Source: Bdellovibrionales bacterium (GTDB lineage: Bacteria > Bdellovibrionota > UBA1018). Taken from it: a DNA stretch of 64,000 nt. Shown here piece by piece: positions 51,124-62,965 of the stretch. Location: positions 62,001 through 126,000 of the forward strand of contig JAEUWC010000016.1 in assembly GCA_016786465.1 (NCBI GenBank). The letters run 5' to 3'. Below the pieces are notes generated by a model. That model was given only the letters and a program-made list of their open reading frames with translations, did no database searches and was not told the DNA's origin. The position numbers and the translations under genes were made by a program. The first letter of the stretch is position 1, and each line of letters starts with the position of its first letter.

Positions 51124-52968
51124 GTGACGGACGATACGTTTCGCCCACCTTCGATCAAGATTTCTCTTGGCGCCAAACTGCTGGCTGCACTGACTTTGCT
51201 GATCGGTTTCAGTATCACTTTTTTGGGCGTGACCGCTTCACGACTTTTCGTCGAAGACAAAGAACGAGCCGTCTTCGGAAACCAAATCACCGAAGCCCTT
51301 TTTGCAGGCCGGGAACTGAACGTACGACTAAAATCTGCAATCGATCTTCTTCGTTCAGTAGCTGTTTCAAATCCGACTGAAGCCAAACGAATTATTTCCA
51401 ACCAAGACCTTTTGGATTTTGCAGAAGTATTTCAGCTGAATCCGTCGGCCACGGGTTCCGGAGACTTGGTACTGCGATTTCAGGCTCACAAAGGCGACAC
51501 TGCGGAACCCACTTTGCAAACTCAGGTCGCCGGCATCTTGCCCCAGCTATTAGCAAGCCAATACCTTTTTCGAAACCTGACCACTAAGCCTGCCGAACCC
51601 AAGGTCGGCGTCTTTCTTGCGCCAGAATCCAAGCAACCCGGTCCGCGGATCATCATCGTCGGAACCCTATCGATGAAGGCTTATTTGGAAGGTCTTCAGA
51701 ATTCTCCGAATGAATTCGCCATTACCGACGACGCCGGCCTAACGGTCCTGGATTCCGATTTTGGCCGCAACTTGATCCAAGGAAATTTATCGAAGGACCC
51801 CGCATTCCTTTTTTCCAAAGAAAGTCCCGTGCAGTCGGGATCCAAGAAAACTTCGGCGGACGACCAAGCACAGCTAGTCAGCTATTACCGCACAGATCTA
51901 GGACTGGTGGTCCTGGTCAAAGCCCAATACACCAAGATGGTTCAAGCGGTCTTTTCGCTGATCGAAAAGATCACGCTATTCGGATTGGGCCTTCTGGCGG
52001 CACTGGCTTTGACGGGAACCCTTCTTTTTAAAAGAATCACCGCACCGATTCGTGAACTTTTCATGGCCACCCAAACGGTTGCCGAAGGAAATTTCGATGT
52101 TCAGATCCGTTCTAAAAGCAAAGATGAAATCGGCGCGCTGGCCAAGGCCTTTGTCTATATGGCCGCTAGGATTCAAAAACTGATTTTGGACGTCGTCGAA
52201 AAATCGCGAATCGATCAAGAACTGAAGATCGCGGTCACGGTTCAAAAGAAGCTTTTACCCCTGCCCCGAGTTTCGGATTCGCAATTGGCTGCGACGGCCT
52301 ATTATCGTTCGGCCAGCGAATGCGGCGGCGACTGGTGGGGGCACCTGTCATTTCCTGGAAAAACGGTTCTTTGTATTGCGGACGCTACCGGACACGGCGT
52401 CAGCGCCGCACTGATTACGGCGTCGGCCAGGTCCGCCTTGGCACTTTTTGAAAAGTTCGCAACCAAGCAGCCTGAACTGATTCATCCGCTGACGATTTTG
52501 GATTTTGCCAACAAGGCGATTCATTCTTCTTCCCAAGGCGAAATCTTGATGACCTATTTCGTCGCCGTGATCGATCACACGACCCGAAAAATTCATGCGG
52601 CGTCAGCAGGTCATAATCCTCAGTACTTGATTTTGAAAACCGACGGCGGCCAGTACGACATTCAAACCTTGGGCGCGGCAGGTTCTCGTCTTGGAGAAAT
52701 CGCAGATCTAGACGTGAATCAGATTCAAGTGCAAACGGTCGACTACACTGCCGGAAGTCAGCTTTTCCTGTATACGGATGGAATCTTGGACGGAACTGAC
52801 GCCAACGATAAGCCCTATGGTCGAAAGGGCTTAAAAAAGGCTCTGCAAATGTCCCAAGGCCAAAGCATCGACACCGTCTTGCAGATGGTTTCGAAAGACT
52901 TTCTTTTGTACGTAGGGCCGAAGCCATTGGGTGACGACGTGACCTTTGTGGTCGGAGAACTGAGATAG
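51124..52968 (+). CDS. Membrane-bound SpoIIE-type PP2C phosphatase with HAMP domain
   Basis: A 614-residue signalling phosphatase. One helix near 17-40 and another near 285-305 flank a periplasmic sensor domain of about 240 residues. After the second helix are a HAMP domain (about 305-360, FKRITAPIRELFMATQTVAEGNFDVQIRSKSKDEIGALAKAF), a linker and a SpoIIE/PPM catalytic domain (about 390-612) with SASECGGDWWG, CIADATGHGVSAALITASAR, AGHNPQYL, LFLYTDGILDG and GDDVTFVV, which supply the metal-binding aspartates. It starts at GTG. Such proteins dephosphorylate STAS proteins; the divergent STAS-like gene is a natural candidate target. Stimulus unknown. Confidence 0.95.
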   Translation: MTDDTFRPPSIKISLGAKLLAALTLLIGFSITFLGVTASRLFVEDKERAVFGNQITEALFAGRELNVRLKSAIDLLRSVAVSNPTEAKRIISNQDLLDFAEVFQLNPSATGSGDLVLRFQAHKGDTAEPTLQTQVAGILPQLLASQYLFRNLTTKPAEPKVGVFLAPESKQPGPRIIIVGTLSMKAYLEGLQNSPNEFAITDDAGLTVLDSDFGRNLIQGNLSKDPAFLFSKESPVQSGSKKTSADDQAQLVSYYRTDLGLVVLVKAQYTKMVQAVFSLIEKITLFGLGLLAALALTGTLLFKRITAPIRELFMATQTVAEGNFDVQIRSKSKDEIGALAKAFVYMAARIQKLILDVVEKSRIDQELKIAVTVQKKLLPLPRVSDSQLAATAYYRSASECGGDWWGHLSFPGKTVLCIADATGHGVSAALITASARSALALFEKFATKQPELIHPLTILDFANKAIHSSSQGEILMTYFVAVIDHTTRKIHAASAGHNPQYLILKTDGGQYDIQTLGAAGSRLGEIADLDVNQIQVQTVDYTAGSQLFLYTDGILDGTDANDKPYGRKGLKKALQMSQGQSIDTVLQMVSKDFLLYVGPKPLGDDVTFVVGELR

Positions 52969-53000
52969 CTACCTTAAGGGAAGTTTCTTTCAAGCAGCCC

Positions 53001-54437
53001 TTGTCCGAGCGGATCGTGATCGGCCTAGCGATCCTGATCGCTTTATTGGTGCTGACCTTAAGTCAGATGTCCGGAGCCGTCCGTTACTACCTTTTTGGAA
53101 CGGGACTTGACGAAGCGTCGACCAAAACAGTGGGCGTGGTTCTTTCCACACAAGGCACCTGTGAAAGAAAGTCCAAGAACAGCATGGAATTCATGTCGAT
53201 AAAGAACGGAGACCCCGTTTACGCCCAAGACACCATCGTCACTGCATCCAAGTCGGGGTGTTCCATATCTGTGGTCGGTGATCGAACCATTATTATGGGC
53301 GAAAGTTCCTTGGTTACCCTGTCTTTTCAACTGGGTCTAATGGGGCTTTTTTTGAACCTTCCTGACCTTTTTGAAACCAAGTCAAATTCAGTCACGATCG
53401 TGCAATCGGATCAGGCCGCCATCGACGCGTTGAAAGCTGTCAAAAACCGCGCGAAGGAACCCGTTGCTGCCGCCAAGCCTGAAGCTCAGGCAAAGAAGTA
53501 CATTCTTCCTGCCGTCCAAGAAGTGGCGATCGATTCGCCCAAGGAAGTTCGAATTCAGCAACCCGGACCTGGGCAAAAGATTGTCGCGACATTCGCACAA
53601 GCCTTCAAAAATGAAATCGAAGTTCCATTTTCTGCAGTGATTACCCAGAAGGACCCCAAAGCCGCACCGATGACGGGGCCTTCGGGATACAGCGTTCAGT
53701 GGTCGGAAGACGGACAAAGCCAAGCCATGAAAGTCGCTTCCGATGAAAAGAAAGGCACGATTCGTTCCAAGATCGTCGTGAAAAAACCCGGGCAGTACGT
53801 GTTTCAGGTCGTGGATTCTGCGGGCCAGGTTGTGAAGTCCCAAGGGTTTGAAGTCGGTCATCGCGTTAAAGGAATTGACCTAAAGCCCATTCCATCTGCT
53901 TTGAAACCCAAGATCGTTTGGTCATCCAAGATTCCTCCGCCCTATACGGTGGTGCTTTCCAACCCAAAAGAAGGGTTAAAGAAAATAACCGTTCAGAAGC
54001 CCGAACTTCAGTTGGGCGAAATCAGCGCGGAATACGAATACACGGCGCAGATTCTGGCCATCACCCCGGACGGATTTCAGTACGAATCCGAAACCCGGAA
54101 GTTTGGAATGGCTTACACGCCACCTGAAATTCATGACCCCAAAGAAGGCGAAAAGATCACTGCGCCACGGGGTAAGAAGATCACCATCACCTGGAATAAG
54201 ACCGTCGGTGCGGTTTCCTACACTTTGGATGTCGCAGGTGACGTGGGCTTCACCAAAACGATCGCCCAGATTGAAAGTCCCGTGAATTTTTCGAAACTTC
54301 GCTTCTTAAATACCGGCGAATATTTTGCGCGAATTCACGTGAAGACCCGCTTTGGGAAAACCTATATTGGACCAGTACGCAAGTTCCACGTTACGATCAA
54401 AGCGCCTGAAAAAGGAAGCGACGAAGCCGTTTACTGA
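53001..54437 (+). CDS. FecR-like protein with fibronectin-type repeats
   Basis: A 478-residue membrane-anchored protein starting at TTG. One helix at about 5-25 (IVIGLAILIALLVLTLSQM) anchors it. Next is a FecR-like periplasmic segment (TVGVVLSTQGTCERKSKNSMEFMSIKNGDPVYAQDTIVTASKSGCSISVVGDRTIIMGESSLVTLSFQ). The remainder comprises beta-rich repeats (PKEVRIQQPGPGQKI, PEIHDPKEGEKITAPRGKKITITWN, VGAVSYTLDVAG) similar to Ig/fibronectin domains. FecR proteins often relay signals to sigma factors, but no ECF sigma factor is present here. It lies 32 bases downstream of the phosphatase and probably shares its transcript. Confidence 0.8.
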   Translation: MSERIVIGLAILIALLVLTLSQMSGAVRYYLFGTGLDEASTKTVGVVLSTQGTCERKSKNSMEFMSIKNGDPVYAQDTIVTASKSGCSISVVGDRTIIMGESSLVTLSFQLGLMGLFLNLPDLFETKSNSVTIVQSDQAAIDALKAVKNRAKEPVAAAKPEAQAKKYILPAVQEVAIDSPKEVRIQQPGPGQKIVATFAQAFKNEIEVPFSAVITQKDPKAAPMTGPSGYSVQWSEDGQSQAMKVASDEKKGTIRSKIVVKKPGQYVFQVVDSAGQVVKSQGFEVGHRVKGIDLKPIPSALKPKIVWSSKIPPPYTVVLSNPKEGLKKITVQKPELQLGEISAEYEYTAQILAITPDGFQYESETRKFGMAYTPPEIHDPKEGEKITAPRGKKITITWNKTVGAVSYTLDVAGDVGFTKTIAQIESPVNFSKLRFLNTGEYFARIHVKTRFGKTYIGPVRKFHVTIKAPEKGSDEAVY

Positions 54438-54443
54438 TTCCCG

Positions 54444-56705
54444 CTAGGGATGCAAAAGGTGCTGAGACAGCAAGTAAGCCGTCGTATAGATCGACATCAT
54501 TGGATTTGCCCCAACCGAACTTGGGAAAATACTGGCGTCCCCCACATAAAGTGATTCGGTACCCCAAACCTGGAACTGTGGATTAACGACGGAAGTCGCT
54601 GGGTCCTTGCCCATCTTGTTGGAACCCATGATGTGCCCCGAAAGCATCAAGGTCGTCGCCGGGTCCAGTTTCAAGTTCTTTTCTAAAGTCTGGACGTCCG
54701 TTTCTGACTTGATGATCGGCGGGTTCATATAATTTTCGATCGTATTGACCACGACTTCAGATGCACCTGCCGCAAGTAGAATCCGTGCTGCTGCCGCGAT
54801 CCCTTTTTTCATCCGCGCGCGGTCAGATTCACTGAGCTCGTAAAGAATGCTGACATCGTCTTTGCCCTTCTTAAAGACAAAGCGGTTGTCGTATCTGGGC
54901 TTGTCGATCAATACTACCCCGGCCCCGGTCAACTTTCGAAAATCCTTGACCCAGCCTAATACGTCTTCAGGAGTACCGGGAACCATCATGGCAATCTTGT
55001 CCACAGGAAAGACGCTCGTTTCTAGTGCGTAATCGTCTAGCGGTTGCTTGTAATCGACCGTCAGCTGATCACCCACGTAGACCGACGATTTGGTTCCTAG
55101 ATAGTGGTCTTGAATGGTTGGAAACTTCGCAATCAAAGGTAGAACTGGATGAACGACGAAGCCTTTACCGATGTTTTCATTCTTGATTCCCGAATTTTCC
55201 AAAAGAAAACTGCTGCCTACGGTGCCGGACGCCAGAATGATGTTCTTTGCGTAAATCTTGTAGCGTTTCTTTTTCTTAAAGCCAAAACCATAAAGATCTG
55301 TGACCGATGAAGGATCCAGATGCGCGGTTCCTTCAGGCCGATGCACTTCGAATTCGACACCGATGGCTTTGGATTTTTTGAAAAGAATTTCTTTTGCGGC
55401 GACATTGACCAGAAGCGATACCGGTGACCCCGTCGATGCCTGATCCACAACCGATGGCAAAAGAAAGACTTCAGCTGCCGATCTTTTATCGGTTGCGCGG
55501 TCCTTGTGTTGGGCCATTTTCATTTCGGAATCAGAAAGTGTCGTCAGCCGGACCATCGACGGTACCCGTCCCAGGGCCTTGGCCCCATCCCAAAGCTTTC
55601 GATTGTTTTCGTTAATTTCCGAAGCCGCCACCGTTCGAACGCCGATCTTCTGGGTCACATACTGGTTGGCTGCCAGTAGGGCCTTTTCGTCAAAAAGCTT
55701 GGGTGAAACCAGTCCCTGGTCGCGCCATTCTCGAAAATGATTCAAGACCGACGGGTCGGAAACGGGGAAAGAAATGTCGTAGTTCAGCGTGCTGCCGCCG
55801 CCACTGATTTCAGCCATGCCCAGGATAATGTCACCTACGGAATTGGGCATTACTCCGCCGTTTCTCAAGAATTGGTTGGCATCGCGAAAATTGGTGCGCG
55901 TGGGGTGAACAAACGGACCCTTTTCCAAGACGGCGACTTTTTTTCCGGCGCGATACAGCTCATGCGCCAGAATCGAACCAGAAATTCCCGATCCTACGAT
56001 CAAATAGTCCAGTTCACCTTCGACCCGCTTCTTTTTGTGATCGACGCTTAAATGCGTCTTCAGCGAAAGACCTTCCAGCGCGCCGACCTTGGTAGAAACA
56101 TTGGCCGGAGGCGGAAAGTTCGTAGCGCCCGCAAGGTCCAGCGCAAACTGTCCACGATAAATTGCGCCGCTATAAAATGCCTTCAGGGTCATCGGAATCC
56201 GGCGATGCATCGAAAGGTCGGCGGTCGCCATCAAATCCAAAAGCTTTCTTCGTTCGGAAAGGCTTAGGTCACTGAATGCAGTAAAGATTCTTCTTTTGTT
56301 TGGACTGGAACGCAGAAATTCTTTCAGTCCCTGGGATGCTTCCTTCAGATCTCGAAACTTGGGTGTCTTTTCCACCTGTTTGAAAATCGCGTAATAAACC
56401 TTGCTGCCTGCAGCCCCCAATAGAAACTCCAATCGGGCCAAAAGCTGGAACGCCAGCTTGATTTCCTTAACTCGGACAATTTCGGACCAGGACCATTCCA
56501 GCCCTTCCTTCAGGGCATCGAAGTATTTCGGATCGTTCTTCAAGGTGTCTGGAAGGTAGACCTCGTAAAGCGAAGTGTGAACCCGGCGGATCAGTTCCCG
56601 ATCTTTGGACATTTCCTGGTTCAAGAAGTCCTGAAACTGACTTCCAAAGGCCACTTGCGAGTAAAGAAACAAGGCGACGAACGCGAAAGGTTTCATAGTC
56701 TTCAT
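54444..56705 (-). CDS. Exported GMC-family FAD oxidoreductase
   Basis: A 753-residue glucose-methanol-choline oxidoreductase with a Sec-type signal peptide (MKTMKPFAFVALFLYSQVAFGS). A helical N-terminal extension of about 200 residues precedes the FAD fold YLIVGSGISGSILAHELYRAGKKVAVLEKG; AEISGGGSTLNYD follows and the C-terminal catalytic region is LSGHIMGSNKMGKDPATSVV..LYVGDASIFPSSVGANPMMSI. Length and the N-terminal helices recall long-chain alcohol oxidases. No twin-arginine motif is seen, so FAD would have to be inserted after export. The gene ends seven bases from the convergent FecR-like gene. Substrate unknown. Confidence 0.9.
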   Translation of the reverse strand: MKTMKPFAFVALFLYSQVAFGSQFQDFLNQEMSKDRELIRRVHTSLYEVYLPDTLKNDPKYFDALKEGLEWSWSEIVRVKEIKLAFQLLARLEFLLGAAGSKVYYAIFKQVEKTPKFRDLKEASQGLKEFLRSSPNKRRIFTAFSDLSLSERRKLLDLMATADLSMHRRIPMTLKAFYSGAIYRGQFALDLAGATNFPPPANVSTKVGALEGLSLKTHLSVDHKKKRVEGELDYLIVGSGISGSILAHELYRAGKKVAVLEKGPFVHPTRTNFRDANQFLRNGGVMPNSVGDIILGMAEISGGGSTLNYDISFPVSDPSVLNHFREWRDQGLVSPKLFDEKALLAANQYVTQKIGVRTVAASEINENNRKLWDGAKALGRVPSMVRLTTLSDSEMKMAQHKDRATDKRSAAEVFLLPSVVDQASTGSPVSLLVNVAAKEILFKKSKAIGVEFEVHRPEGTAHLDPSSVTDLYGFGFKKKKRYKIYAKNIILASGTVGSSFLLENSGIKNENIGKGFVVHPVLPLIAKFPTIQDHYLGTKSSVYVGDQLTVDYKQPLDDYALETSVFPVDKIAMMVPGTPEDVLGWVKDFRKLTGAGVVLIDKPRYDNRFVFKKGKDDVSILYELSESDRARMKKGIAAAARILLAAGASEVVVNTIENYMNPPIIKSETDVQTLEKNLKLDPATTLMLSGHIMGSNKMGKDPATSVVNPQFQVWGTESLYVGDASIFPSSVGANPMMSIYTTAYLLSQHLLHP

Positions 56706-56804: not shown

Positions 56805-57524
56805 ATGTCTTTCGAGAAACCCGGTATTCTTGGCGGTTTTGTTTACGGCACGGCAGCCCTACTGGCCTCCTGGATGCTTTCAGGATGTCGCTTAGGCAAT
56901 TATTCTAGCCAACCCATTGATAAGGATCCGACTGGCTACTACCAGATCAACGCTGGATCTTTAGGCTTCAGCACCAACGTTCGCGACGGCGCTTTCGCCG
57001 CCGCCGTCACGGAAATCCCGCTAGAAGTGTCAGAAGCGATGGCCAACCCCACGATCCTTCAGGTTCAGGACATGAGCAGCGGTCTATCGGTCATGGGCAG
57101 CGTGGATCGCGCCTACCAAGTTCAATTGGGGAACGATGACACGATTTGGTCGATTCGGTCTCAGGACTTTGGCCCTTTTTGGACCGACGCGAACTGCACG
57201 CTGATGAAGTCTTTGGAAATTGACGGTTCCATCACCCGGTTCACGACACAGCAAAACGGTCCAAGTGGTTTGCCGCTTTCAGGAAAAATGAAAGCCAAGT
57301 TCACCGTAATCAATTCCTTGCAGGGCAGTTGTGCGCAGACAATGGCCGACGTCCAAAGCTGCTACGCGGATCAGGATCTTTGCGGCGGCGCAAATGCCAC
57401 CGAAAATCAGGATTACCACGAATCCATTCGAAGCTACTTTGCGCCGTGGATTAACAGCGGATCCATCAGTGACAGCGAACTTCACAACGTTCGCAGTTTT
57501 TCTTTCGAAGCTATTTACGACTAG
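56805..57524 (+). CDS. Predicted lipoprotein, function unknown
   Basis: A 239-residue protein with a lipoprotein signal: MSFEKPGILGGFVYGTAALLASWMLSGC, lipid-modified cysteine at about 28. The mature part is mixed strand-rich (YYQINAGSLGFSTNVRDGAFAAAVTEIPLEV, MSSGLSVMGSVDRAYQVQLG) with five further cysteines, among them in ANCTLMKSL, QGSCAQTM, VQSCYADQDLCGGA, which may form disulfides. No known family recognised. It diverges from the GMC oxidoreductase, with 99 bases between starts. The end overlaps the convergent pentapeptide gene by 14 bases. Confidence 0.8.
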   Translation: MSFEKPGILGGFVYGTAALLASWMLSGCRLGNYSSQPIDKDPTGYYQINAGSLGFSTNVRDGAFAAAVTEIPLEVSEAMANPTILQVQDMSSGLSVMGSVDRAYQVQLGNDDTIWSIRSQDFGPFWTDANCTLMKSLEIDGSITRFTTQQNGPSGLPLSGKMKAKFTVINSLQGSCAQTMADVQSCYADQDLCGGANATENQDYHESIRSYFAPWINSGSISDSELHNVRSFSFEAIYD

Positions 57525-57912
57525 GAACGAAAACCATTCCGCGCTTTTCGGCTTCTTTGGCAGGAAAAGGAAGAACCGTGCGTTCATTGTAAACGGCGCC
57601 TTCTAAGCGTGCGCCCTTCACATTGGTCAAAAGCATTTTTGCGCCGATCAGGTTTGCCTTGCGTAAGTCAGCGTTTGAAAGATCCGCGCGCGAAAGATTG
57701 GCACCTGAAAGATCCGAACCCGCCAGGTTCTGACCTTTTAATTCTTCACCCCAAAGATCGCCGCAGGATCCTTTGAAGCCTTGTCGCATTCCAGAAAGGC
57801 CCTGGCCATTCAGGCAAAGTCCCTTCGAAGGTTGGTACTTATAAGGTTGGGTCTCGACTGCGTTTGCCGCAAAATTCAAAGTCCCCAAAATAACGATTAG
57901 AAAAGTATTCAT
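57511..57912 (-). CDS. Exported pentapeptide-repeat protein
   Basis: A 133-residue protein with a signal peptide (MNTFLIVILGTLNFAANA) and a pentapeptide-repeat stretch at about 57-100: LKGQNLAGSDLSGANLSRADLSNADLRKANLIGAKML, in the A(D/N)LxX pattern that folds as a quadrilateral beta-helix. Two cysteines lie in the mature part (GLCLNG and GSCGDLW). Function of exported pentapeptide proteins is usually unknown. Adjacent genes on the minus side do not share its direction. Confidence 0.9.
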   Translation of the reverse strand: MNTFLIVILGTLNFAANAVETQPYKYQPSKGLCLNGQGLSGMRQGFKGSCGDLWGEELKGQNLAGSDLSGANLSRADLSNADLRKANLIGAKMLLTNVKGARLEGAVYNERTVLPFPAKEAEKRGMVFVPSRK

Positions 57913-58101: not shown

Positions 58102-59163
58102 ATGGAGACGAGGACCTCATTGGTTTACGCATTTTTGTGCGCAACTGGATTTACTGCCCCCCTGACCTTCGCCCAGGTACCCTCGCGCTTGATTCAGCGC
58201 GACCCCGTCCCTGCCATTGAAGAACAGCTTAAAAAAATTCCCGGAGCACCGGCAAAGCTCGACCCAAACGAACCGCTTCGCTTTCAATTGGATTCTGAAC
58301 GTGTGATGGTGATTCGTAACCGAATCAACCCTCTGAAGATTCTGAAATCCAAGATCAAGATGGAAGGAACCTCGTGCAGCGAAGCCGCTGCTCTGGTTTC
58401 AGTGACCTGCACCGCATTCGTGCCCGTTCAATTCACCGCCGTTGGCCTTTTCTGGGAAAAACACCCTGACCCAAATAGACAGGGGAAACCGGTTCAAATA
58501 TCGGCAAAACCGAAAACGGGAGACAGCTTTGAAGTGCCCGCATCGGCCACCTACCTGGTCACGTCCGAATATCAAGCATATCGGGAACTGGGAACGGATC
58601 CGGTCTTTTCTCAAAAGTCTGGATTTAAGTGTTCATCGCTGGATTGGTTTCAGGAAAATTCGATTGATGACAACGGCGCAAAAAAGATGCTGATCTATCG
58701 ATGGGACTGGGAAAGAAACGAAAGCAATCCAGAAACCTACGTGAATGAAAACCGTTCCGAATCTGCGGCGATTGAAGTGGTGCTTGAAAAACAAGGCGAA
58801 CAGATCGTGGTTTCTGAACTTGCTGCGCTTGGACGGGAAGGAGCATTGAATGATTCACCGATGCCCACGGCCCCAGGCGAGCTTTTTACCTGGGTGATCA
58901 AAAGACCCGGAAAAGAATCCTGTTCCATCAAGTGGGGGGTCAACCAACCGGATCCTGACCTTTTTCAGATTCTTGAACTGCGAGCCGGCATCGAAGGCGT
59001 CAACGCTTTAAATGGATCAAAACCTTCTGATCCGCTTTCGCTGAAACAGCTGAAAGGTCTTCCGTTTTTGACCACCCGGCTGCTTGGCCGACTAGTGGAA
59101 ATGGATCCCGAGGAACTTAAGAAGTTCCGATCCGGTGAGGAGTTCCAAATTGAATACAAGTAG
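58102..59163 (+). CDS. Exported protein of unknown function (first gene of cytochrome-like operon)
   Basis: A 353-residue protein with a likely signal peptide (METRTSLVYAFLCATGFTAPLTFAQ). No family recognised. Five cysteines in the mature part (GTSCSEAAALVSVTCTAF, GFKCSSLDWF, ESCSIKWG) could pair or bind a cofactor. The chain is mixed strand/coil with no membrane helix beyond the signal. It heads a plus-strand chain in which every following start overlaps or nearly touches the previous stop, so it is likely to act with the CXXCH and DUF1501 proteins. An alternative TTG start at 58120, preceded by GAGGACC, would shorten the n-region. Confidence 0.75.
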   Translation: METRTSLVYAFLCATGFTAPLTFAQVPSRLIQRDPVPAIEEQLKKIPGAPAKLDPNEPLRFQLDSERVMVIRNRINPLKILKSKIKMEGTSCSEAAALVSVTCTAFVPVQFTAVGLFWEKHPDPNRQGKPVQISAKPKTGDSFEVPASATYLVTSEYQAYRELGTDPVFSQKSGFKCSSLDWFQENSIDDNGAKKMLIYRWDWERNESNPETYVNENRSESAAIEVVLEKQGEQIVVSELAALGREGALNDSPMPTAPGELFTWVIKRPGKESCSIKWGVNQPDPDLFQILELRAGIEGVNALNGSKPSDPLSLKQLKGLPFLTTRLLGRLVEMDPEELKKFRSGEEFQIEYK

Positions 59164-60751
59164 GATTCTTGCCGCGACAGTTTCGATCATTTTGACCCTA
59201 AGTCCGCCTGACGCCCGGGCATCGGAATCCACAACTCTTTCCGATGCAGCTCGGTTAAGGAAACTCAGTCTATCCGTTCGAGGAACCTTGCCAGCGACTG
59301 AAGATTTTAAGGAACTCGAGGCAGCGCAAAAGGCAGGGACTTCAGAAGAATTCTTTCGTTCAAAGGCTCGCGCTTATTCGCGTTCGGAATACGCATTCGA
59401 ACGCTTGACCTACCGGCTTAGGGCACTTTTTCGTCTTCGGCACTCTGAGTATCTGGGCGACCAACAGATGAAGCTGATTCTTGCTTACCGCGAAGGTAAA
59501 CTGAAAAATGAAGGCTACACAAAGCTGATCACGATTGGCGAAGATCAGGGAATCGTCGTACCTAGCGTGGATGAAATTCGATTCACCGAAAAAGACACTG
59601 CGAACACCCTATTTCTTGATGTCGCTCGAGGAGCCAAATCCTGGGACGCCATTTTTAATTCAAGGTCATTTCGCTTTGCTGCTGGCCTTTATACCAGCGA
59701 AGAAAACTTTTTCGCTGCGGTCAACCCGCTGATCCCGGTCGGCACGACCTCGATCCTGCGCCGAAATAAAGACTTTCTTTATAACGGCAGTCGCGAATCC
59801 TCGAGTTACGGAAAACAGTTGCGCGAGTTCGTTTTTCATCCAAACGATCCGCGTTTTGCCGGAATCTTTACGACACCACGATTCACGGGACGCTTTAGTA
59901 CGACGTTCTTGAACCAAAACCGAGGACGCGCATCCCAACTTTTCCGAACCGGGCTTTGCGATTCGATGACGCCCGTTGTGGTCGTCGATAACGCCCAAAC
60001 CGAAGAAGTCCTAGCCTTGGCGAAACCCAAGGCAGAAAGCAGCAACAACGACCTTGTGAACAATGCGCACGCTGCAATTGAAAAGAAGCACGGATCGGAT
60101 CCACAGTGCGTCGCCTGCCACTACAAGCTCGACCCGGCAGGAAAAACTTTTCAAAACAATACGATTGCAGCTTCGGTTTCTGCTTCACCCGGCGCACTGG
60201 TCTATAAAGACCAGTCTGGAAATTTAATTCATTTGAATGCGCGCGGAATCGGCGATTTGGCCGACCATATGGTCAAGCGACCCGAGTACGCCCAGTGCCA
60301 GGTCACCCACCTGTGGAACTGGTACATCGGTACGGATTTCCCGCTCACTGAGTCTGTCTTGAATGAATTAGTCACCACTTTTGATCAAGTTGGCCGCAAG
60401 GCACCCGAAATGGTTCAATACCTGGTTTCACGTCCCGAGTTTCGCCAAATTCAGGTGAAAAGCGCAGTCGATCAAGACCCGTTGATGATCGCGCGAACCG
60501 AAGTGAAAGACATTCTTAAACAATGCTCGGACTGCCACGATAACGTAGGAAACCCGGTTCCACGCTTTCATGAATTTCCGTTGTCGGAAAACCCGGAAGA
60601 ACACCGTTCTTGGGTCCAGAAAATTGCAAAGGCAACCCAGGTCGACGATGCCGGAAATTCGTACATGCCCCCGGATTGGTCGGGATGGAAACCTAGCGCG
60701 CAAGAACGAAAGAAAATTGAGAACTGGATCCAGCAGGAGCTTTCAAGATGA
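59150..60751 (+). CDS. Exported two-CXXCH protein with DUF1588-like motif
   Basis: A 533-residue exported protein starting at TTG 59150, which has AGGAG seven bases upstream; a GTG at 59135 lacks such a site. The signal peptide is MNTSRILAATVSIILTLSPPDARAS. Two c-type heme motifs are present: CVACH at about 319-323, in CVACHYKLDPAGKTFQN, the CxxCHxxLDPxG form of planctomycete-type DUF1588 proteins, and CSDCH at about 459-463, in a C-terminal cytochrome-like segment ending NSYMPPDWSGWKPSAQERKKIENWIQ. Heme attachment is inferred from motif and export. Overlaps the previous gene by 14 bases and the next by an ATGA. Confidence 0.82.
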   Translation: MNTSRILAATVSIILTLSPPDARASESTTLSDAARLRKLSLSVRGTLPATEDFKELEAAQKAGTSEEFFRSKARAYSRSEYAFERLTYRLRALFRLRHSEYLGDQQMKLILAYREGKLKNEGYTKLITIGEDQGIVVPSVDEIRFTEKDTANTLFLDVARGAKSWDAIFNSRSFRFAAGLYTSEENFFAAVNPLIPVGTTSILRRNKDFLYNGSRESSSYGKQLREFVFHPNDPRFAGIFTTPRFTGRFSTTFLNQNRGRASQLFRTGLCDSMTPVVVVDNAQTEEVLALAKPKAESSNNDLVNNAHAAIEKKHGSDPQCVACHYKLDPAGKTFQNNTIAASVSASPGALVYKDQSGNLIHLNARGIGDLADHMVKRPEYAQCQVTHLWNWYIGTDFPLTESVLNELVTTFDQVGRKAPEMVQYLVSRPEFRQIQVKSAVDQDPLMIARTEVKDILKQCSDCHDNVGNPVPRFHEFPLSENPEEHRSWVQKIAKATQVDDAGNSYMPPDWSGWKPSAQERKKIENWIQQELSR

Positions 60752-61314
60752 TCCGAAAAATCATGGCACCCGTTGCAATCATTTTTCTGTCAACAATCGC
60801 CGCGGCTCAGGAAAAGGCGACATTTGGCAACACCCATCAAAAGATTCTGACGGGTGAAGAAATCCTACAAATCGTGAATGACCGAATCCCAACGGATTCA
60901 AGCTATTTCGGCCAGTTTTGTTCCGATCTGAAAAAGATCGGGCTGACCAGTCCCATCACCGGGAAACCGGATACCCTGCAACCTTCGCCTATTTTCATTC
61001 AGCAGATTGAAGGCTGCCTGAAAGAAAGAATGCATTACCTGACTGGCCCAATCACACAAATTCCGCGACCGACGGGTGGAACCTTGGACGCCTACAGAGC
61101 CTGGCCACAATTGACCCCTGATGAAAAGACCATGATGGTCCGTTACCTTCGCGAATTCTGGATCGGCCCATCGGTCGTTTCTGACCCAAAGGCCTTTGAC
61201 CAAAGAATCGTTAAAATCATGGATCGGCAAAGATCCGCTTCGTCTGAAAGTTACGGTCACATCCGCAGGGTTACGTCCGAAATCATGAAAACCAGAGAGT
61301 TCTTGGTGTACTGA
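60748..61314 (+). CDS. Exported protein of unknown function in cytochrome-like operon
   Basis: A 188-residue protein with a signal peptide (MIRKIMAPVAIIFLSTIAAAQ). The mature part is mostly helical (ILTGEEILQIVNDRIPTD, IFIQQIEGCLKERMHYLTG, LTPDEKTMMVRYLREFWIGPS, IVKIMDRQRSASSESYGHIRRVTSEIMK) with two cysteines. No known family. It is coupled to the genes on both sides (ATGA before, TGATG after), which argues for a stoichiometric partner of the CXXCH and DUF1501 proteins. Confidence 0.75.
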   Translation: MIRKIMAPVAIIFLSTIAAAQEKATFGNTHQKILTGEEILQIVNDRIPTDSSYFGQFCSDLKKIGLTSPITGKPDTLQPSPIFIQQIEGCLKERMHYLTGPITQIPRPTGGTLDAYRAWPQLTPDEKTMMVRYLREFWIGPSVVSDPKAFDQRIVKIMDRQRSASSESYGHIRRVTSEIMKTREFLVY

Positions 61315-62666
61315 TGAAACGTCGCGAATTCGTTGTTCAGATGGGAAAAAGCCTAAGCCTGGTGGTTGCTTCAAAAGCAATCTTGACCCAAGCGGCCTGG
61401 GCGAAATCAAAAAACTTACTGAGCGCGGCAGCCCGACGAATGCAGCTAAATGCTTGGTCAAGCCGGCATCTTTCCCATTTTAGTTTAGCCAATGAAGCGC
61501 AAGGACCAGGACACTTTCTGGTTCTATATGAGCTGGGCGAAGGCGCAGATACCTTGGCGGGTTTAGATCCTAGGATTCACCAGAAGGGCGAAGACGAAAA
61601 AGATTTCTTCATTCCCTATCGTTCTGAAGAAAGAATTCGGTTTGGAGAATCATTCTTGGGACCCGCGGCTTCCCCTTTGATGCCCCACCTTGCTGACATC
61701 GGCGTGGTCAACGGGATCATGATGTATCGCGACGTGGGACACGAAAGCCTTTCAAACTTTTTGGCCAGCGGAAACCCCAGCGGAATGAATCCCCGCATGA
61801 GTTCCGCGCTGAGTTTCTGCGAACACCGGGGCCATGGTGGCGTGATGGTCAACGGAACCAGTGATCCAAGTCCATCCCCAGTTCAGCAGACCAGCTTGTT
61901 TGATTTAAGTAACGGGTCGCTGATTCAGGACTACCAGCAGATCAAGGATTCAATCTTGGAAGAAGACGGATCATCGAACGACTACTTTTCGGAATTAGTG
62001 AAAAAGCTGGGTGTCGTCGCTAGCGCCGCCGATCAGATGAGCCGAATCAAATCCCAGATTGACGCCCAGAATCCCGGAATTCGATCCGAACATGCTTGGC
62101 TTGCCGCCGCTTTCGCTTCAGGCTTTTCGATGCAAGCTAACTTACTACCCAATTCGGACGCTCCGACTTTGGATTCGCATTCCAACTATGAAGCCGATCA
62201 CGCAACCGCCCAAGTCGCGTCTTGGCAGTACCTTGCTGACATCATGACTTTGTTTAAAAAAGTCCCCTACGGAAGCGGCAGCCTTTTTGATCACACCACC
62301 TTCATGGCTTACAACGAATTTTCCAGAACGCCCTACCTGAATGCGGCAGCAGGAAAAGACCATAACCCGCTGACGAACTCGGTGCTATTGGCAGGCAAGG
62401 GCGTCCAAGGCGGCGTGGTCGTGGGTGAAAGTCAGATCATCACCCGCGGAAAAAGTGTGGTGAACGAAGCCCTTCACATTGCCAAGCCCTTTGACTTTGA
62501 ATCGCAGTCGGCCGTTGCGGCTGCGGGCAAAGGCCAAAAATTCATTGATCCGACGAACGTCGCCGCGACGATCGCTCAGATCTTTAAAAATTCGTTAGCT
62601 CCGGGGTCTTTCTTCGAACCGGTGGCGGCGAGTGTCCCTTACTTGAAAAAGATCTTAAAATCCTAG
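61314..62666 (+). CDS. DUF1501-family protein with twin-arginine-like signal
   Basis: A 450-residue protein related to DUF1501, a family in the alkaline-phosphatase/sulfatase-like fold. The N-terminus MKRREFVVQMGKSLSLVVASKAILTQAAWAKS has an RRxF motif for probable Tat export. The family mark EFSRTPYLNAAAGKDHNPLTNSVLLAGKGVQGG is near 336-365 (planctomycete form SEFGRTPxxNxxxGRDHxP); TTFMAYNEF precedes it. In planctomycetes DUF1501 genes usually neighbour DUF1553/DUF1549 cytochrome-type genes, paralleling the CXXCH gene here. The reaction is unknown. Confidence 0.87.
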   Translation: MKRREFVVQMGKSLSLVVASKAILTQAAWAKSKNLLSAAARRMQLNAWSSRHLSHFSLANEAQGPGHFLVLYELGEGADTLAGLDPRIHQKGEDEKDFFIPYRSEERIRFGESFLGPAASPLMPHLADIGVVNGIMMYRDVGHESLSNFLASGNPSGMNPRMSSALSFCEHRGHGGVMVNGTSDPSPSPVQQTSLFDLSNGSLIQDYQQIKDSILEEDGSSNDYFSELVKKLGVVASAADQMSRIKSQIDAQNPGIRSEHAWLAAAFASGFSMQANLLPNSDAPTLDSHSNYEADHATAQVASWQYLADIMTLFKKVPYGSGSLFDHTTFMAYNEFSRTPYLNAAAGKDHNPLTNSVLLAGKGVQGGVVVGESQIITRGKSVVNEALHIAKPFDFESQSAVAAAGKGQKFIDPTNVAATIAQIFKNSLAPGSFFEPVAASVPYLKKILKS

Positions 62667-62674
62667 GAGCAAAT

Positions 62675-62965
62675 ATGAAGAAAGTTTTGATCGTAGCCTT
62701 GATGACATTGACCCCTGCCGCAGCTTGGGCGCAATCGCCCGATCCTCTTCCGACGATCAACGAGTATTCTTGCGATTGTACGGATGCAACCGGTGAATCG
62801 TCTTCATTGGGAAGTGTGCAGATTCAAGTCGATGGCCATTCATCTGAATCCGACATCGAAGCTTCAGGCGACCGCGCTTGCAAGCAAAAGTACGGCGCCG
62901 ACAGCCTGAATGAAGTCAAAGTAAAAACCGGCACCTGTTCTCAGTCGTTGGTCGACGAAGAATAA
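62675..62965 (+). CDS. Small secreted four-cysteine protein
   Basis: A 96-residue precursor with a clear signal peptide (MKKVLIVALMTLTPAAAWAQ) and a mature chain of about 76 residues with four cysteines (YSCDCTD, DRACKQKY, TGTCSQS), which could form two disulfides. No family recognised. It starts eight bases after the DUF1501 gene with GGAG upstream, so it is the last gene of the five-gene operon. Its last 25 bases overlap the convergent transporter gene. Confidence 0.8.
   Translation: MKKVLIVALMTLTPAAAWAQSPDPLPTINEYSCDCTDATGESSSLGSVQIQVDGHSSESDIEASGDRACKQKYGADSLNEVKVKTGTCSQSLVDEE

Follow-up and report, generated by a model that had tools for sequence, protein, structure and literature searches.

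The DUF1501 domain is catalogued without a known function. The same has been said of the PSCyt/DUF1588 proteins (PMC5615132), although these are widespread. Gene context links the PSCyt genes of Planctomycetes and Verrucomicrobia to carbohydrate use, and in Verrucomicrobia these genes are found near sulfatases, and some of the PSCyt genes carry carbohydrate-binding modules (PMC5615132). Operons that pair DUF1800 with DUF1501 have been reported in Proteobacteria (PMC5122149). We found no literature on these families in Bdellovibrio.

In this study, we describe a related operon in a Bdellovibrionales bacterium, located in a 64,000-nucleotide stretch (the window, meaning the whole stretch analysed) of a 3.63 Mb draft genome. 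As in the PSCyt2/PSCyt3 systems of Planctomycetes and Verrucomicrobia, a putative c-heme protein of DUF1549/DUF1588-like type is encoded beside a partner gene; however, the partner genes are unknown there (PMC5615132), whereas the partner in the window operon is a DUF1501 gene. Furthermore, the window heme protein (g2) has a C-terminal cytochrome c domain and no N-terminal PSCyt1, and the operon adds two conserved exported subunits, g1 and g3. As in the DUF1800-DUF1501 operons of Proteobacteria, a Tat-signal DUF1501 protein is coupled to a second protein in the operon (PMC5122149), but g2 has no DUF1800 match and carries two heme motifs, and no chitin synthase is encoded nearby. Because the domain order differs and two extra conserved subunits are present, the window operon is a phylum-level variant of the known PSCyt/DUF1800-DUF1501 pairing. 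The first-pass annotation of this DNA had regarded DUF1588-like/DUF1501 pairs as mainly planctomycete, a view contradicted by the proteobacterial operons (PMC5122149) and by related pairs elsewhere in the phylum.

The conserved four-gene unit

Five plus-strand ORFs were found at 58102-62965, exactly where the first-pass annotation had placed them and with the same overlaps. Taken from the ORF list, g1 (58102..59163) encodes an exported protein of 353 aa unassigned to a family, g3 (60748..61314) a small exported protein of 188 aa without a family, and g5 (62675..62965) an exported four-Cys peptide of 96 aa that adjoins the conserved unit. Based on Pfam matches and conservation, g2 (59150..60751, TTG start) encodes a putative di-heme c-type cytochrome and g4 (61314..62666) a Tat-signal DUF1501 protein of 450 aa, for which an AlphaFold2 (AF2) model predicts an alkaline-phosphatase-superfamily fold. 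In the window, g1 and g2 overlap by 14 nt, g2 and g3 by 4 nt (ATGA), and g3 and g4 by 1 nt (TGATG), while g5 starts 8 nt 3' of the end of g4. Judged by eye, each of the five N-termini resembles an export signal, as had been proposed, and that of g4 is of the twin-arginine type. Among the window proteins, g2 and g4 have Pfam matches and g1, g3, and g5 have none; NCBIfam contributes no further match for g1-g5. No promoter or terminator signal beyond chance level was found at the operon.

We searched for g4 in 55 genomes of the order and then in 369 genomes of the phylum, and the neighbourhoods of the matches were fetched and their ORFs clustered. At an E-value of 1e-10, g4 matches were found in 36 of the 369 genomes, i.e. 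about 10%. All four genes g1-g4 are present in 23 loci according to per-gene profile searches, the profiles being trained partly on the same loci, yet L049, L066, and L068, which are outside the g1 alignment, are g1-positive. The order g1-g2-g3-g4 on one strand is kept in 22 of these 23 loci, including the window, and in the single exception, L051, g1 is placed after g4. The four-gene loci span eight families (f1, f9, f11, f14, f16, f18, f20, and f22), a count that takes in the split-contig genome G255. Across loci the g1/g2 and g2/g3 junctions are mostly 4-nt overlaps, and g4 follows within about 20 nt. The g1 profile detected 24 of the 369 genomes, every one of which is also g4-positive, and two weak matches (L066 and L068) bring the total to 26. 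Where g1 lies on a separate contig from g4, g2 directly adjoins it, and no g1 away from the operon's g2 was found in the 369 genomes. In the genome of L072, a second g1 is followed by a 261-aa g2 frame (L114:100-1829, minus strand), perhaps a broken or shortened copy.

The arrangement is thus beyond chance, since order and strand are kept in 22 loci of several families with a recurring short overlap. The five-gene operon first proposed stands as far as g1-g4 are concerned, which hold together in relatives, and the same is true of the five-gene order that was to be sought in other genomes; g5 drops out, as no homologue of it was found in the 369 phylum genomes. By ORF clustering, the GMC oxidoreductase and pentapeptide genes that flank the operon here are likewise not kept beside it in other loci. 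With g5 lacking a homologue in the phylum genomes and the flanking genes not conserved, the conserved unit is the four genes g1-g4. The patchy spread, with about a tenth of the phylum genomes positive, points to an accessory rather than a core role. Named records matching g4 in a search with a single peptide pattern, so that relatives in other phyla are possible, are metagenome-assembled genomes labelled Bdellovibrionales, Bdellovibrionaceae, Pseudobdellovibrionaceae, Oligoflexia, or, less specifically, Deltaproteobacteria/Proteobacteria, and on this basis we take the phylum to be Bdellovibrionota.

The g4 tree is incongruent with the families: on supported branches, three or more changes are required for f11, and one f16 copy of g4 sits inside the f11 copies. 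The nearest relatives of that f16 copy are identical for g1, g2, g3, and g4. Pairwise divergence correlates for every gene pair of g1-g4 (Spearman 0.52-0.80), and none of 2000 permutations gave values as high. The four genes share one history, and the operon has probably been transferred between families in some cases. No plasmid with a detectable g4 relative was found. Taken together, the gene order, the overlapping junctions, the correlated divergence, and the occurrence of g1 only with g2 strongly support the earlier suggestion of an undescribed periplasmic system.

Predicted features of the four products

The g2 protein comprises a DUF1549-like N-terminal part, a DUF1588 heme region, and a C-terminal mono-heme cytochrome c domain. 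Its heme motifs, CVACH and CSDCH, are at C320-x-x-C-H324 and C459-x-x-C-H463. Both CXXCH motifs, together with C270, C383, and M506, are invariant in all 17 g2 homologues, and H314, a possible distal ligand of the first heme, is found in 16 of them. The description of g2 as a DUF1588-like protein with two CXXCH motifs is borne out for the motifs and less so for the family, the window g2 scoring 26.4 bits against DUF1588/PSCyt3 (PF07627) where the curated cut-off is 27. The DUF1588 model nevertheless matches 17 of 17 aligned homologues at E-values up to 1 (best 1e-10), and L089 exceeds the cut-off with 31 bits. The window g2 C-terminus scores 21.4 bits against PF00034 (cut-off 21.3), and the cbb3-type cytochrome c model matches all 17 homologues at E-values up to 1. 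Among the same 17, DUF1549 (PSCyt2) is found in 12 and PSCyt1 in two (best E-value 0.1), and PSD1 is not among the matched families listed; the window g2 has neither PSCyt1 nor PSD1. The planctomycete architecture, PSCyt1 and PSD1 with PSCyt2, is thus not that of g2. DUF1800 was matched in one of the 17 at an E-value of 0.06 only, and g2 and g4 do not form a DUF1800-DUF1501 pair.

With conserved CXXCH motifs and a conserved candidate axial ligand, g2 has the features of a c-type cytochrome. Since the CXXCH motifs and M506 are invariant and cytochrome models match, the C-terminal heme is probably His/Met ligated, with M506 as the axial ligand. Conservation of the motifs suggests that heme would be attached covalently to g2; the same genome encodes a cytochrome c assembly protein (PF01578), the sole maturation gene found.

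The g4 protein belongs to DUF1501 (PF07394), scoring 50.2 bits where the cut-off is 27, and the model matches 18 of 18 aligned homologues. The protein begins with MKRREFVVQ, a start whose twin Arg is found in every relative in which the N-terminus is present. In Foldseek and VIA searches, the AF2 model of g4, built from 23 sequences (pLDDT 82), matched the alkaline phosphatase superfamily, the closest being nucleotide pyrophosphatase/phosphodiesterases and sulfatases. The best match, to a nucleotide pyrophosphatase/phosphodiesterase (7mw8), covers the core fold (Z 17.1, 240 aligned residues, rmsd 3.3), and g4 is thus predicted to have the fold of this superfamily. PDB sequence searches with g2, g3, and g4 gave nothing useful. 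Eight residues, D79, H143, D287, H289, H296, R338, D349, and H350, are invariant in all 23 g4 sequences, and the Asp and His residues among them are, from sequence alignment and secondary structure, candidate metal ligands. H292 is found in 21 of the 23, with Tyr in the window; T81 and S152 are Ser or Thr in 91% of the sequences, position 81 being Leu in the window. The region between D79 and D287 lacks a strictly invariant Ser, Thr, or Cys in the 23 sequences. The start of the helix at 143 has D/N/E140, G142, and H143 in the family, and by analogy with the superfamily this is the candidate nucleophile site, a placement drawn from sequence alignment and secondary structure. Like the members of the superfamily (NPP, sulfatases, LtaS, and EptA), g4 would combine the predicted fold with invariant Asp/His of the metal-binding type. 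It differs from them in its identity of only about 10%, in the candidate nucleophile site lacking a strictly invariant Ser/Thr/Cys, and in the adjoining cytochrome gene.

In g1, the alignment shows C92, W118, and C274 to be invariant and C103 and C177 nearly so, and this conservation of cysteines suggests disulfides. The AF2 model of g1 is beta-rich with a moderate pLDDT of 69, and no fold match was obtained with Foldseek (best E-value 0.07) or VIA (best Z 3.5). No convincing Pfam family was found across 18 g1 homologues; a weak CopC sequence match (E-value 0.012) involves the N-terminal part of the profile and is partly signal peptide. The g3 homologues match no Pfam family, and profile comparison did not detect homology of g3 to g2. 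However, L049, L052, and several other relatives encode a single protein in which g3 is fused to the C-terminus of g2. The longest such fusion seen is a frame of 925 aa (L113:202-4075, minus strand), which directly adjoins g1.

A candidate redox complex and its alternatives

The best explanation we can offer, and one we hold tentatively, is that g1-g4 are translationally coupled in one operon and that their products form a periplasmic complex catalysing a redox reaction. In this scenario, g4 would be exported folded via Tat with its metal already bound and would serve as the metal- and substrate-holding subunit. Electrons would be drawn from g4 by g2 through two hemes, the C-terminal one His/Met ligated, and handed to the soluble c-cytochrome pool. 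The g3 protein would be a structural subunit of g2, and g1 a beta-rich subunit, stabilised by disulfides, for binding or as a scaffold. As to the substrate, we can only guess at a carbohydrate or an ester set free from prey or detritus. This redox complex is supported by the order and strand that 22 loci share, their junctions being mostly 4-nt overlaps, by the restriction of g1 to g4-positive genomes and to the company of g2, and by the g2-g3 fusions and the correlated divergence of the four genes. Further support comes from the invariant CXXCH motifs and M506, with the cytochrome model matches and the assembly protein in the genome, from the invariant twin Arg of g4 and its superfamily fold (Z 17.1), and from the Verrucomicrobia PSCyt genes, which are located near sulfatases and some of which carry carbohydrate-binding modules (PMC5615132). 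Against it stand the departures of the window g4 at near-invariant positions (L81 and Y292), the patchy distribution, and the lack of a fold match for g1.

The fold of g4 also allows a more conventional, though unlikely, alternative in which g4 is an ordinary hydrolase of the phosphodiesterase or sulfatase kind and g2 then oxidises the released substrate, in successive steps rather than at one redox site. The closest folds are indeed nucleotide pyrophosphatase/phosphodiesterases and sulfatases, and the invariant Asp and His residues resemble the two-metal-binding set of that superfamily; the region after the first Asp, however, lacks a strictly invariant Ser, Thr, or Cys, and D/N/E140, G142, and H143 occupy the helix start instead, at the candidate nucleophile site. 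The lack of a strictly invariant nucleophile would suit an envelope structural or assembly/secretion module, with heme serving sensing or stability and g4 retaining an enzyme fold that is catalytically dead and serves binding. Two subunits without homology to enzymes and the patchy distribution are in keeping with such a module, but the strict invariance of the g2 heme motifs and of the g4 Asp/His set suggests working cofactors, and we consider it quite unlikely.

A gene tree incongruent with the families, with an f16 copy within the f11 copies, and the same nearest neighbours in all four genes might also be expected if the operon were mobile or selfish cargo, e.g. for defence, without a housekeeping role. 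This we regard as very improbable: all products look exported, a survey of the flanks, by ORF clustering only, revealed no mobile-element genes in common, and a defence role was rejected, as none of the five proteins matches PADLOC models.

Returning to the redox complex, a more specific form of it would be a phylum-level periplasmic complex of four proteins. In it, a DUF1501 protein with an alkaline-phosphatase fold would not be a hydrolase but would bear metal for redox work or hold the substrate, electrically connected to a di-heme cytochrome, and two new protein families would be obligate partners; we think this form rather unlikely. If g4 were indeed a non-hydrolytic alkaline-phosphatase fold coupled to hemes, it would represent a new use of a much-studied enzyme fold. 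Found in genomes of the phylum that are complete or nearly so, this compact and coupled version with four genes delimits a set of components and offers a tractable unit for learning the roles of the PSCyt/DUF1588 and DUF1501 families.

Neighbouring genes and related loci

Two proteins that look exported are encoded near the operon on the opposite strand: a 753-aa GMC-type oxidoreductase, extended by a long additional N-terminal part, at 54444-56705 (minus strand), and, immediately upstream of the operon, a 133-aa pentapeptide-repeat protein at 57511-57912 (minus strand). At 51124-54437 (plus strand) we noted by eye a sensor-like protein whose C-terminus resembles SpoIIE/PP2C; the next gene there encodes an exported protein that is FecR-like.

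A second locus type, seen in L081, L083, L085, L086, L087, and L115, lacks g1 and encodes a larger cytochrome-like protein (~650 aa) together with a small one of ~200 aa and a DUF1501 protein. Simpler DUF1588-like/DUF1501-like loci in the same phylum are L086, L087, L115, and L117, and no plasmid with a relative of the L117 DUF1501 protein was found. Distant pairs of a partner and a DUF1501-like protein in family f9, at L116:7167-10302 (minus strand) and L117:5493-8579 (plus strand), keep the Gly-His and Asp-x-His motifs.
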